Below, in pieces: positions 41,952 to 44,761 of a stretch of 61,064 nucleotides of DNA. The stretch is taken from NCBI GenBank assembly GCA_025054775.1, contig JANWZA010000046.1:1-61064 (forward strand), written 5' to 3'. The position numbers and the translations under genes are program-made. Numbering within the stretch: the stretch's first letter is position 1; each line of letters starts with the position of its first letter. The notes under the pieces were generated by a model that made no database searches, was not told the DNA's origin, and saw nothing but the letters and a program-made list of their open reading frames with translations. This DNA comes from Microscillaceae bacterium. Its GTDB lineage: Bacteria; Bacteroidota; Bacteroidia; Cytophagales; Microscillaceae.

Positions 41952-42698
41952 CTAATTTTTTACATGCTTTTGCAGTAATTTTCTCAACTCTTCTTTTGAG
42001 GTAAAGCCTTCTTTTTGCCAAAGTTTTTGGGCTTTTTGGTAGAGCAGGAGCGTAGGTAGGTTTTCTACGTTAAGCTGTTTAGCTAAATTTTCATTTTGGT
42101 CAAAATCAATTACTACGATACTCGCTCTCCCTGCAAACTCTTGATTTAGCTCATCTAAAAATGGCTTCATTTTACGGCAAGGAGCGCACCAAGAGGCCGA
42201 AAAATCAACTAAAATAGGTTTTTCACTTTGCGTAAGAGCTTCAAATTGGGCTAAACTCATACCACTTTTTGTGGCTTCCTTTTCATTTTTTACTATTGCT
42301 TTATTTGCATTTTGCCAACGAATAATTCCTCCTTGCATCTCATACACTTCCTTAAAACCTTGCTCTCGTAAAAAACCTGCCGCAGCACGACTCCTACCTC
42401 CTGAAAGGCAATATACAAATACAGGGCGATTCTTATCCAAATAAGTTATTTTTTCGGCAAAATCACTTCCGTTGTAATTGATATTTAAAGCATTAGCTAT
42501 GTGAGCTGTTGCAAATTCTTGGGGCGTTCTTACATCTAAAAGTTGAGCTTGTGGATTCGCTTTCAGTTTTTGCTCGAATTGTTCTACATCTAACAAGTAG
42601 CTATCGCTTTGTCCTTGTGAGCAGTTAGTCAAACAACCTCCAAGCAAGGCTATCCAAGCTAACCAAACAGAACTATATTTTTTTCTTAGCATAATCAT
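41952..42698 (-). CDS. Rhodanese-thioredoxin fusion lipoprotein
   Basis: Lipoprotein signal with lipobox LGGC (Cys22), a rhodanese domain (LLDVRTPQEFATAHI, active-site Cys in VYCLSGGRSR) and a C-terminal thioredoxin domain with WCAPCRK. The fusion suggests transfer of sulfane sulfur from rhodanese to thioredoxin in the envelope. ATG at 42698 is used; 42692 is an alternative and the longer frame from 42755 runs into arsR and is rejected. It follows arsR by 10 bases. Subcellular side is inferred from the lipobox. Confidence 0.88.
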   Translation of the reverse strand: MIMLRKKYSSVWLAWIALLGGCLTNCSQGQSDSYLLDVEQFEQKLKANPQAQLLDVRTPQEFATAHIANALNINYNGSDFAEKITYLDKNRPVFVYCLSGGRSRAAAGFLREQGFKEVYEMQGGIIRWQNANKAIVKNEKEATKSGMSLAQFEALTQSEKPILVDFSASWCAPCRKMKPFLDELNQEFAGRASIVVIDFDQNENLAKQLNVENLPTLLLYQKAQKLWQKEGFTSKEELRKLLQKHVKN

Positions 42699-42708
42699 TG
42701 CTGAAAGG

Positions 42709-43047
42709 CTATAATTTATTAGAACAGTTTTGAATACAATGAACAATATTAACAATGTTACGGTCTTTCAGAGCATAAAACATATTTTTACCTTCACGTC
42801 TTACTGTTAATACGCCTTTGTCTCGCATTTTGCCCAAGTGGTGTGAAAGTAGAGCTTGTTCTATATTCAATTTACTCTGCATGTCAGACACACTCATACC
42901 CGCCTCGCATTGGTCAAGTAAATCTATAATTGCAATACGAATAGGGTGCGAAACAGCTCGCAAAATGTAAGCAGATTTCTCTAACTTCTCACTTTCTATG
43001 CGCAGTCTCACTAAATTAAGTGGTATTTTTTCTTGTATATTTTCCAT
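42709..43047 (-). CDS. ArsR-family transcriptional regulator, candidate persulfide sensor
   Basis: 112-residue winged helix repressor (SHPIRIAIIDLL, SVSDMQSKLNIEQALLSHHLGKMRDKGVL, recognition helix and beta-wing REGKNMFYAL). Three Cys residues are seen: C47 in LLDQCEAG and C104/C108 in the C-terminal helix (VHCIQNC). A similarly placed pair is used by SqrR/BigR regulators to sense persulfides; metal-binding ELCVCD-type motif of ArsR is missing. As first gene of the rhodanese/thioredoxin operon, sulfur-stress control is likely, but the effector is inferred. Confidence 0.85.
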   Translation of the reverse strand: MENIQEKIPLNLVRLRIESEKLEKSAYILRAVSHPIRIAIIDLLDQCEAGMSVSDMQSKLNIEQALLSHHLGKMRDKGVLTVRREGKNMFYALKDRNIVNIVHCIQNCSNKL

Positions 43048-43303: not shown

Positions 43304-43335
43304 TTTGCAAAATTCAAAAAGACGTTTTATCTTTG
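43304..43335 (+). promoter_or_regulatory. Promoter of the tRNA-like RNA unit
   Basis: TTTG (43304-43307), 20-base spacer, TATCTTTG (43328-43335), an exact match to the Bacteroidota consensus. The tRNA-like domain starts 37 bases downstream at 43372. This is one of the best promoter matches in the window. Confidence 0.7.
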
Positions 43336-43371
43336 CAAAGTCAAAACACAAGGTAAGTTTTGAAACTAATT

Positions 43372-43494
43372 TGTAGGGTGATGAAACTTTTGGCAGCCAT
43401 ACCCTCCTGTCTCGAGGGCGAAGATAAGGGAAAAATTTAGGTATAATATACCTAAACTAACCGCTTCGTGAAGGTTCGAATCCTTCCCCTACAG
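43372..43494 (+). tRNA. tRNA-like RNA with apparent GUC anticodon and oversized variable arm
   Basis: A cloverleaf can be drawn: acceptor TGTAGGG (43372-43378) with CCCTACA (43487-43493), T8, a short D stem ATG/CAT (43381-43383, 43398-43400) with GG in the loop, anticodon stem CCCTC/GAGGG (43402-43406, 43414-43418), loop CTGTCTC with anticodon GTC at 43409-43411, T arm GAAGG-TTCGAAT-CCTTC (43470-43486) and discriminator G at 43494. The variable region is 51 nt (43419-43469) with a CGAAG/CTTCG stem and a TTTAGGTA/TACCTAAA hairpin. G34, U35, C36, C38, G73 and G2-C71 match known AspRS identity elements, although ordinary tRNA-Asp has a short variable loop. A21 is missing and position 37 is T. 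No CCA is encoded. Decoding function is uncertain. Confidence 0.6.
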
Positions 43495-43530
43495 CTAAGA
43501 TAATAAGTTGAGTTTTAGGTAATTCATTTG

Positions 43531-43564
43531 AAAAAAGGTGGCACTCTGTTGGGCTACCTTTTTT
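43531..43564 (+). terminator. Intrinsic terminator of the tRNA-like RNA unit
   Basis: AAAAAAGGT (43531-43539) pairs with ACCTTTTTT (43556-43564) around a GC-containing loop; the T-run continues with GTTTTTTG. With the promoter at 43304 it delimits a transcript of roughly 220 nt. Confidence 0.8.
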
Positions 43565-43738: not shown

Positions 43739-44761
43739 TTATGCCCAAATCTTTGTACCTTCAGTACAATTCTTACACATTGCTATTGCAGAGCGTGCTT
43801 CAAGTAAAGATTGCCGAAATTGCGTGTATTTCTCACTTCGCCATACTTTAGTAAAAGAGGTTTGCGATACATCGCCCAATCGATAGTGAGCATCCTTATC
43901 AAAACAACAAGGCACAACGTAACCATTCCAAGTAATGACGCAGGAGTGCCACATTTTCCAGCAGTGATTAAGTAGTTGATTTTTAATATGATACTTCCCA
44001 TCACTACCCAAGCGGTACCGAGAGTACTTATCAATAGTTGGGATAAGGTCAGAGCCGTTTTCGTAGTCATAGATTTGAGCTGTTTTTAGCCCTACGGCAT
44101 CTACACCGAGTTGTCTGGCTAATTCCTTTACCTCATCAATTTGATGTTGATTAGGTCTGACTACCAAGAACTGAAATAAGATGTAGGGTGTTTGTGATTT
44201 AAGTTCGCGTTTCCATTTAATTACATTCTTCGTACCTTCAATCACTTTGGCAAGTTTTCCACCAATTCTATATGCTTGGTAAGTTTCTTGGGTAGTGCCG
44301 TCAATAGAAATAATAAGCCTACTTAATCCTGATTCTACAGTTTTGCGGGCTTGGATATCGTTCAAATAGTGAGCGTTGGTAGAGGTAGCTGTATAAATTC
44401 CTTTTTGTGAAGCGTATTGCACCATTTCTAAAAATTGTGGGTGTAGGTAAGGTTCTCCTTGAAAGTAAAAAATTAAGTAAAGTAAAGTTTGCTCTAATTC
44501 ATCAATGGTTCTTTTATACATTTCTATTGGGAGCATACCCGTTGGGCGCGTAAAACTTCGCAAGCCACTGGGGCATTCAGGACAACGTAAATTGCAAGAA
44601 GTGGTAGGTTCAAAAGCTATACTTATAGGCAACCCCCAGTGCACAGGCTTTTTAGTTAGTTTGGCATACCAATAACTACTTACTACTTTGGCAATATTAA
44701 AGGCTTTTCGGGGCGTAAGTTTAGAAAGTAAATGTAAGCTATCTTTCCAGTGGATTATCAT
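43739..44761 (-). CDS. Radical SAM/SPASM domain protein
   Basis: 340 residues. The radical SAM cluster motif CNLRCPECP lies near residue 53-61, and a C-terminal SPASM region with CWKMWHSC, VPCCFD and CKNC provides ligands for auxiliary iron-sulfur clusters. The family modifies peptides, sugars or other small molecules. The neighbours (tRNA-like RNA, ClpX) give no substrate hint, and no small precursor peptide gene was found nearby. Glycan- or lipid-linked roles occur in related SPASM proteins of Bacteroidota. No signal peptide. Confidence 0.9.
   Translation of the reverse strand: MIIHWKDSLHLLSKLTPRKAFNIAKVVSSYWYAKLTKKPVHWGLPISIAFEPTTSCNLRCPECPSGLRSFTRPTGMLPIEMYKRTIDELEQTLLYLIFYFQGEPYLHPQFLEMVQYASQKGIYTATSTNAHYLNDIQARKTVESGLSRLIISIDGTTQETYQAYRIGGKLAKVIEGTKNVIKWKRELKSQTPYILFQFLVVRPNQHQIDEVKELARQLGVDAVGLKTAQIYDYENGSDLIPTIDKYSRYRLGSDGKYHIKNQLLNHCWKMWHSCVITWNGYVVPCCFDKDAHYRLGDVSQTSFTKVWRSEKYTQFRQSLLEARSAIAMCKNCTEGTKIWA

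Follow-up and report, generated by a model that had tools for sequence, protein, structure and literature searches.

Does the tRNA-shaped RNA encoded on the forward strand at positions 43372-43494 of the window (the whole 61,064-nt stretch of Microscillaceae DNA that was analysed) still read codons, or has it taken on another role? A first-pass annotation had described a 123-nt cloverleaf at this site, and all structural elements that it named were found there, including the 3-bp D stem and a variable region of 51 nt with a 5-bp stem and an 8-bp hairpin. The mature part, all of whose features lie on the forward strand, matches the covariance model R1 with 122 bits and is backed by covariation. 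Its 7-bp acceptor stem, TGTAGGG/CCCTACA (43372-43378 paired with 43487-43493), begins with U1-A72. The D arm (43381-43400) consists of the stem ATG/CAT and a loop with G18G19, and the anticodon arm, CCCTC-CTGTCTC-GAGGG (43402-43418), carries a loop of the family type YNGUCUC. In the extended variable arm (43419-43468) the stem CGAAG/CTTCG is followed by the internal loop GGGAAAAA/CTAAC and the 8-bp hairpin TTTAGGTA/TACCTAAA (43436-43456). The T arm, GAAGG-TTCGAAT-CCTTC (43470-43486), is canonical, and the discriminator is G73 (43494); 87 of 89 unique rows share this G, and the remaining two are a gap and a real tRNA-Leu. CCA is not encoded by the gene; the base after G73 is C, as it is after many ordinary tRNAs of the same genome. 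The fold energy of the transcript is only mildly unusual (z -1.81; 10 of 200 shuffles were as good). The 7-bp acceptor stem, the 5-bp anticodon and T stems and the canonical T loop are traits of decoding tRNAs that the window RNA and its family share.

The presence at this locus of signals of an autonomous transcription unit, as claimed in the first-pass annotation, is supported. A -33 element, TTTG (43304-43307), and a -7 element, TATCTTTG (43328-43335, of the form TAnnTTTG), both on the forward strand and assigned by consensus, are separated by 20 nt and end 36 nt upstream of the mature RNA; together they form what we take to be a Bacteroidota-type promoter. Downstream, folding predicts a strong intrinsic terminator (43531-43564, forward strand), in which the arms AAAAAAGGTGGC (43531-43542) and GCTACCTTTTTT (43553-43564) form a 12-bp hairpin with a 10-nt loop, followed by a T-rich tract. 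A consensus terminator scanner listed none, because its loop limit of 8 is below the 10 nt found here, and a promoter scan that covers sigma-70 only, not the Bacteroidota type, did not report the promoter of the RNA. Among 137 unique 90-nt upstream regions of host loci, an exact TAnnTTTG occurs in 97 (8.7 expected from base shuffles) and is missing from 40; TTTGC occurs in 71 (9.1 expected) and a boxA-like GTTCTTT in 12 (1.2 expected). A match at 43340-43366 resembling CRISPR-DR63 was sub-threshold (E 0.19) and is taken as chance.

The RNA escapes the usual tools. ARAGORN called no gene at its position, and Rfam 15 gave no match over it at the gathering score. The Rfam tRNA model RF00005 reached 18.1 bits, compared with a gathering score of 29, on a partial and mis-registered span, and the tmRNA model RF00023 had no match in the window at the gathering score. 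For seven further loci Rfam likewise returned no match over the RNA, its 19 matches there being other tRNAs and a tmRNA, and for one phage copy (L250) there was none even at E values up to 1. No published description of this family was found among the titles and opening lines of abstracts in the open-licence part of PMC.

Homologues in related genomes identify the locus as more than a chance fold. In blastn searches against 57 relatives, matches of about 70-80% identity over about 120 nt (E down to 6e-23) appeared among many chance matches, and some relatives had several in tandem. A strict pattern found 48 copies in 27 of 39 stretches. The first-pass annotation had let its case depend on conservation of the acceptor, anticodon and T arms in relatives, and all three arms are conserved. 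In 26 aligned host copies, the 25 pairs of the cloverleaf and the first variable-arm stem are formed in 99.8% of 650 cells, and 12 of the 25 pairs show double changes; slid controls were 48-67% paired. All seven acceptor pairs are formed in every cell of the 26 sequences, four of them with double changes, and 99.2% of the cells of the variable-arm stem are paired in relatives. Four of five covariation measures were matched by none of 500 shuffles; the exception is the fifth, further pair types, with 35 shuffles reaching it. A phage-rich set of 32 copies (30 from phages and two from hosts) yielded 34 predicted pairs, 26 of them with compensatory changes. The model R1, built from the 26 sequences with the window copy among them, separated members in 395 Bacteroidota genomes (88-127 bits) from the next best matches listed (at most 59 bits), which are tRNA-sized and were not typed individually; a single member, in genome G026, scored in between (67 bits). 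Because of the blastn conservation, the covariation and this gap in R1 scores, a chance fold can be rejected, and covariation together with the spread among genomes likewise rules out a pseudogene. On this comparative evidence it is very probable indeed that the window RNA is one of a family of tRNA-like RNAs, conserved and so far apparently without a description, whose members no longer decode.

In the order to which the window belongs, the RNA is present in 140 of 193 sampled genomes (127 of 159 of good quality) in one to seven copies, some of them in tandem; genomes of the order without it include the small-genome families f8 and f21. The R1 search, whose host scope was the 395 Bacteroidota genomes, found a member at E < 1e-23 in 40 genomes, to which G026 is added. 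The carriers are the 15 genomes sampled from the window's own order, without exception, a further 23 from the class (families f23, f24 and f27) and all three genomes of one genus belonging to another class; the search showed no member in families f25, f26 and f28-f31, which belong to the class of the window. Named genomes were scanned with a pattern that matched at least 120 stretches, and the 80 listed were all Bacteroidota by title, among them Cyclobacterium, Dyadobacter, Belliella, Fulvivirga, Emticicia, Runella, Flammeovirga, Thermoflexibacter, Reichenbachiella, Marinoscillum, Portibacter, Phaeodactylibacter and various MAGs. A plasmid collection held no match for the one copy of the RNA tried.

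Copies vary considerably in size. The long variable arm, which the first-pass annotation noted as far longer than in tRNA-Asp or any ordinary class II tRNA, is real in the window copy and is no constant of the family, whose members span 76 to 199 nt. Likewise A21, reported as absent, is indeed replaced by C in the window copy and is present in many relatives. The shortest member (G026; L349 501-576, reverse strand) has 76 nt, the loop CUAUCUC and no extended variable arm, which must thus be dispensable; it retains UCUC, U1-A72 and G73. By eye, promoter-like and terminator-like sequences flank this copy. In G019 the copy (L063/L350) has a decayed variable arm without CTAAC, and no close Lrp homologue was found in that genome. 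Tandem arrays of four to six copies in one genome occur at L060, L061, L062, L157 and L209, and copies of two size classes were noted in the arrays L060-L062. As only about 45 nt lie between the copies of L062, a joint precursor is likely there. At L075 one base is inserted in the T arm.

Whether such an RNA could decode was judged from the anticodon loops of 88 unique host members, which had been found by blastn or model score and not by a loop pattern. All 88 have U35, C36 and C38, and 85 have U37. Position 34 is G in 81 members and A, C or U in the other seven, which keep 24 or 25 of the 25 pairs. The anticodon GUC of the first-pass annotation holds for the window copy (loop CTGTCTC) and not for every host. 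U33 is found in 58 members, and position 33 is not U in the remaining 30; the window copy has U33, but also U37. As a rule, decoding tRNAs carry U33 and a purine at position 37. Since the surrounding stem changes by compensation while the loop stays constant, the loop itself is under selection. The genome of the window also contains an ordinary tRNA-Asp (GUC), whose loop CTGTCAC differs from that of the RNA only at position 37, besides a tRNA-Glu (UUC), four tRNA-Leu (one read by eye) and a tmRNA. A non-decoding, tRNA-derived RNA had been among the options of the first-pass annotation, and the statistics at positions 33 and 37, with a normal tRNA-Asp encoded elsewhere, bear this option out: judged by its sequence, the RNA almost certainly does not read codons. 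An anti-Shine-Dalgarno role of the CCTCCT in the anticodon arm was considered and dropped, as the covarying stems destroy this motif.

The body of the RNA resembles tRNA-Leu, a conclusion drawn from the model ranking and the D arm. Among the ordinary tRNAs of phage stretches typed by ARAGORN, the best R1 scores belong to tRNA-Leu, and by eye the D arm with G18G19 and GGYAG, the base of the variable arm ending in CG-U48 and the T arm are all Leu-like. Global pairwise alignment to the tRNAs of the same genome placed tRNA-Ser first by score and tRNA-Leu fourth, which was judged uninformative on ancestry because of the variable arm. The family differs from tRNA-Leu in having G73 instead of the A73 discriminator, U1-A72, the loop YNGUCUC, no decoding function and, in most members, a structured variable-arm domain. 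With tRNA-Asp it shares the loop CTGTC-C, G73 and G2-C71, but it differs by U37, a free position 33, U1-A72 in place of G1-C72 and the long variable arm. Bacterial Asp identity comprises G73, G34, U35, C36 and C38, with G1-C72 and G2-C71 strictly conserved (PMC9976931), and position 37 lies outside this set. The window copy has G73, G34, U35, C36 and C38. The AspRS identity set that the first-pass annotation had recognised is accordingly retained at G73, U35, C36, C38 and G2-C71, but G34 is lost in 7 of 88 members, and the window copy, like 85 of 89 unique rows, has U1-A72 as its first pair; the remaining rows are three with a gap and one real tRNA-Leu. Charging by SerRS is also possible, because G73 of E. 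coli tRNA-Ser acts as an antideterminant against LeuRS and a change from A73 to G73 can switch Leu to Ser identity (both from PMC9976931). Two traits of tRNA-Ser, the long variable arm and G73, are combined in the window copy; the arm is lost in the member of G026. In the genome of the window, the tRNA-Ser with anticodon UGA (L023) has A at the discriminator, as read by eye, and two other tRNA-Ser genes have G.

A second line of evidence comes from the gene neighbourhood. In the window itself the divergent neighbour encodes an ArsR-type HTH regulator (42709-43047, reverse strand; Pfam PF12840/PF01022); a radical SAM/SPASM protein (43739-44761) and a rhodanese-thioredoxin fusion (41952-42755), both on the reverse strand, lie nearby. 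When the neighbouring ORFs of 39 loci were clustered, a gene of the Lrp/AsnC family was the most frequent (26 loci). Further clusters in at least four loci, with names assigned by eye for all but Lrp, were suf-type genes (8, 5 and 4 loci), a fasciclin-like protein (4) and a probably spurious ORF (4), and a large ATPase-like signalling protein is encoded near the RNA in six of the 39 loci, the window included. No transferase, aaRS or toxin gene was recognised by eye among the clusters present in at least four of the 39 loci. The Lrp gene reads away from the RNA, with its start side towards the promoter of the RNA, and the one tested by Pfam combines an HTH_AsnC-type domain with AsnC_trans_reg. 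In 75 of 148 loci (not deduplicated) an Lrp-matching open frame of 49-73% identity lies 46-304 nt away; 58 loci have no adjacent Lrp gene and 15 more are too near the edge of the locus. Linkage was also seen in the genus of another class (L125) and in Flavobacteriales MAGs (L135, L201), and 64 unique intergenic sequences between Lrp gene and RNA were extracted. Regulators of the Lrp type are amino-acid-responsive by family.

The association extends to gene content. Among the 57 relatives, a close Lrp homologue (E at most 1e-40, orthology being judged by score alone) is encoded by 39 of 41 RNA carriers versus 4 of 16 non-carriers (Fisher p 2e-7, kinship ignored). Without genomes under 2 Mb the proportions are 39/41 and 2/10 (p 3e-6, kinship again ignored). 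The carriers include truncated contig-end copies (G004, G005) and the decayed copy of G019; if G004 and G005 are not counted as carriers, the homologue is found in 38 of 39 versus 5 of 18 genomes, kinship ignored here too. Linkage is not universal: at least ten carriers with an Lrp homologue (G000, G005, G009, G026, G031, G034, G046, G047, G049 and G055) have the gene and the RNA on separate contigs or at a great distance from each other. In the genome of the window, the Lrp homologue (69% identity) is located on contig C54 and not beside the RNA.

The RNA is also carried by phages. A pattern based on the loop matched 23 IMG/VR contigs, all of which R1 confirmed at 79.7 bits or more. A second pattern, based on the distal domain of the variable arm, matched 85 contigs, and 66 of the 80 listed were new; of these 66 stretches, 63 scored at least 79.7 bits, two with altered 5' ends reached 70 and 62 bits, and one that has lost its 5' half reached 34 bits. 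With both patterns together, R1 confirms the RNA in 86 of 89 fetched viral stretches. One protein from each of eight viral stretches was assigned, giving a terminase, a portal protein, Sak4, RusA, PhoH, a helicase and two unknown PHROG families. In the 636-kb public phage record LR756504.1 the RNA lies inside a tRNA array. Of the 83 fetched viral stretches scanned with ARAGORN, 33 have one or more further tRNA or tmRNA genes and 50 have none, and the ORFs of 23 viral stretches include no Lrp gene. A public phage collection gave one match for the copy L266, none for L250 and, for the window copy, only two at E 0.8.

In the phage-rich set of 30 phage and two host copies, the variable arm folds into a consensus domain that consists of a proximal stem, a strongly covarying 3-bp stem, the internal loop GAUAAA/CUAA and, beyond it, a distal stem, GG-N-U-N-GACCAC and an apical part. 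CTAA is found in 170 and GACCAC in 58 of 176 unique host copies. All 63 unique phage copies have both motifs, a figure biased by the second phage pattern, which required GACCAC and CTAA; among the 23 viral stretches retrieved with the loop pattern alone, GACCAC is likewise present in all. Apical palindromes of at least 8 nt occur in 11 of 25 unique regions and of at least 6 nt in 17, compared with 1.1 and 4.5, respectively, expected from base shuffles, and several can also be read as small hairpins. The sequences invite the suggestion that the RNA may dimerise via the apical palindrome. The window copy lacks GACCAC; a plain hairpin takes its place, with no palindrome recognisable by eye.

How might such an RNA work? 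The reading that we favour, at a probability of roughly 0.4, is that of a tRNA-derived and tRNA-processed but non-decoding RNA that is part of an Lrp-type circuit and acts on a tRNA-handling partner. The transcript would be cut by RNase P, trimmed and provided with CCA in the manner of a tRNA, while an Lrp-type regulator would control its transcription from the shared intergenic region. Taken by itself, the Lrp circuit is rather probable. The link may be plain synteny around a shared promoter, however, and GatB also co-occurs with the RNA, although less sharply (39/41 carriers versus 9/16 non-carriers, p 0.001; 39/41 versus 7/10, p 0.046, without genomes under 2 Mb). As no Lrp gene was found in the 23 viral stretches, phage copies would have to work without a regulator of their own. 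The RNA might engage its partner as a tRNA mimic, through the UCUC loop and the tRNA body. AspRS would be the single most likely partner, either aspartylating the RNA or being titrated by it, and its candidacy is tentative: the invariant U35, C36 and C38 and the near-invariant G73 fit, but U1-A72, the seven of 88 members without G34 and the unexplained conservation of U37 speak against it. Next in line would be a tRNA-targeting enzyme for which the RNA serves as a decoy. Phages would carry the RNA to impose the same effect during infection.

In a more far-reaching scenario, which we consider doubtful, a tRNA-Leu-like lineage would have become, early in Bacteroidota, a signal RNA without decoding function that is governed by the Lrp/AsnC regulator and whose charge state adjusts amino-acid metabolism or translation. 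The charged or uncharged state would be read via the invariant UCUC loop and, in many members, the folded variable-arm domain, which comprises the internal loop GAUAAA/CUAA, the element GGGUUGACCAC and a palindromic loop and could serve for dimerisation or ligand binding. Phages would then have captured the RNA to hijack host control.

The alternative that survives best, albeit as an unlikely one, makes the RNA an aminoacyl donor: it would be charged with Asp by AspRS, or with Ser by SerRS, since its body is a Leu-type class II one that has G73 and G2-C71, and the amino acid would be passed to a non-ribosomal acceptor such as a lipid, a peptide or a protein end, with U1-A72 marking the RNA for the transferase. 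The acceptor and T arms are intact and under selection, G73 and U1-A72 are nearly invariant, and the A73-to-G73 switch would direct a Leu-type body towards Ser. U1-A72 is the mark by which amidotransferases choose Asp-tRNA-Asn (PMC9976931), and the co-occurrence of GatB, whose enzyme reads this pair, is in line with a donor. The neighbour clusters recurring in at least four of the 39 loci, in contrast, comprise no transferase or aaRS recognisable by eye, and no second AspRS was seen in the 57 genomes, where 54 have one match over the cut-off, with others far below, and three (G013, G035 and G050) have none. No GatB turned up in two genomes of genus g8 that carry the RNA (G013 and G014; 79% and 91% complete), and GatCAB as the user of U1-A72 was set aside on this ground: either it is not needed or the assemblies miss GatB. 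The leucyl/phenylalanyl transferase Aat, present in 32 of 41 carriers and 9 of 16 non-carriers (p 0.11), has no clear link to the RNA and is absent from nine carriers. A benefit of a donor to phages is hard to see.

The RNA might also be a sponge for an enzyme that cleaves or modifies tRNAs and reads the UCUC or GUC loop, for example an anticodon nuclease, a PIN toxin or a tRNA-targeting phage defence, and phages would carry it to protect their translation. The constancy of the loop within a compensating stem would be expected of such bait, as would its occurrence in phages with tRNA arrays or as the sole such gene of a fetched stretch. Presence in the chromosomes of 140 of 193 genomes of the order and the recurrent Lrp linkage look like housekeeping rather than defence, however, and no toxin gene was recognised among the recurrent neighbours of the 39 loci, which leaves this function quite unlikely. 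A regulator that merely borrows the tRNA fold for stability and processing is quite improbable as well. Its GUCUC loop would pair with GAGAC in mRNAs, or the RNA would titrate Lrp, and the conserved loop pentamer, the Lrp linkage, the promoter and terminator signals of its own and the palindromic apical element of many phage copies would suit such a role; a seed of five bases is short, though, the window copy shows no palindrome, and the conservation of acceptor, elbow and T arm goes well beyond what mere stability would seem to require. That the RNA is a diverged tRNA still decoding in the Asp/Glu codon box, as N34-U35-C36 and its placement among decoding tRNAs in some phages might suggest, is highly improbable and was ruled out on the U33 and U37 statistics, ordinary tRNA-Asp and tRNA-Glu being encoded in the same genome.

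tRNA-like RNAs that do not decode or are otherwise odd are already known; new here is a family whose anatomy, partner gene and distribution over hosts and phages are its own. The allo-tRNAs and selC* tRNA-Cys resemble it in their non-canonical cloverleaves, long variable arms and odd anticodons including GUC, and some of these irregular RNAs are not charged by E. coli aaRS; they have 8/4 or 9/3 acceptor branches and are reported from other phyla (Mukai et al., 2017, as reviewed in PMC7609411). The present family differs in its 7/5 branch, with seven acceptor and five T-stem pairs in all 26 aligned hosts, and in its occurrence in Bacteroidota and in phages. Like tmRNA, it joins a tRNA-like end to an extra domain and does not decode by an anticodon, but it keeps a full anticodon arm and no tag frame was noticed by eye; the genome has its own tmRNA elsewhere. 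Viral tRNA-like structures and the tRNA mimics in aaRS mRNAs (PMC9976931) are further cases of tRNA mimicry by non-decoding RNA, from which the family differs as a free unit that is neither the end of a viral genome nor an mRNA leader. Most sampled genomes of an order and many viral contigs thus contain an RNA class, with up to seven copies per genome, that ARAGORN does not see and that is not in Rfam 15. With this class one can study directly how a tRNA abandons decoding for another role, and its tie to one Lrp/AsnC-type regulator provides a genetic handle. Being the sole tRNA-shaped gene found on many phage stretches, it suggests a target that phages need to control.

Some phage stretches hold further irregular genes. 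Two copies (L308 7868-8025 and L319 959-1117) have an extra hairpin-like insert in the D loop, and the copy in L319 is located near a phage tmRNA gene. Five odd tRNA-like genes (L289 4588-4706 and 9980-10112, L335 5951-6099, L271 3170-3298 and L258 7214-7350) score 27-44 bits with R1 and contain long inserts at different places; four of the five share the acceptor sequence AGTCAGG. Judged by these sequences, they may be intron-bearing or represent a second tRNA-like family.
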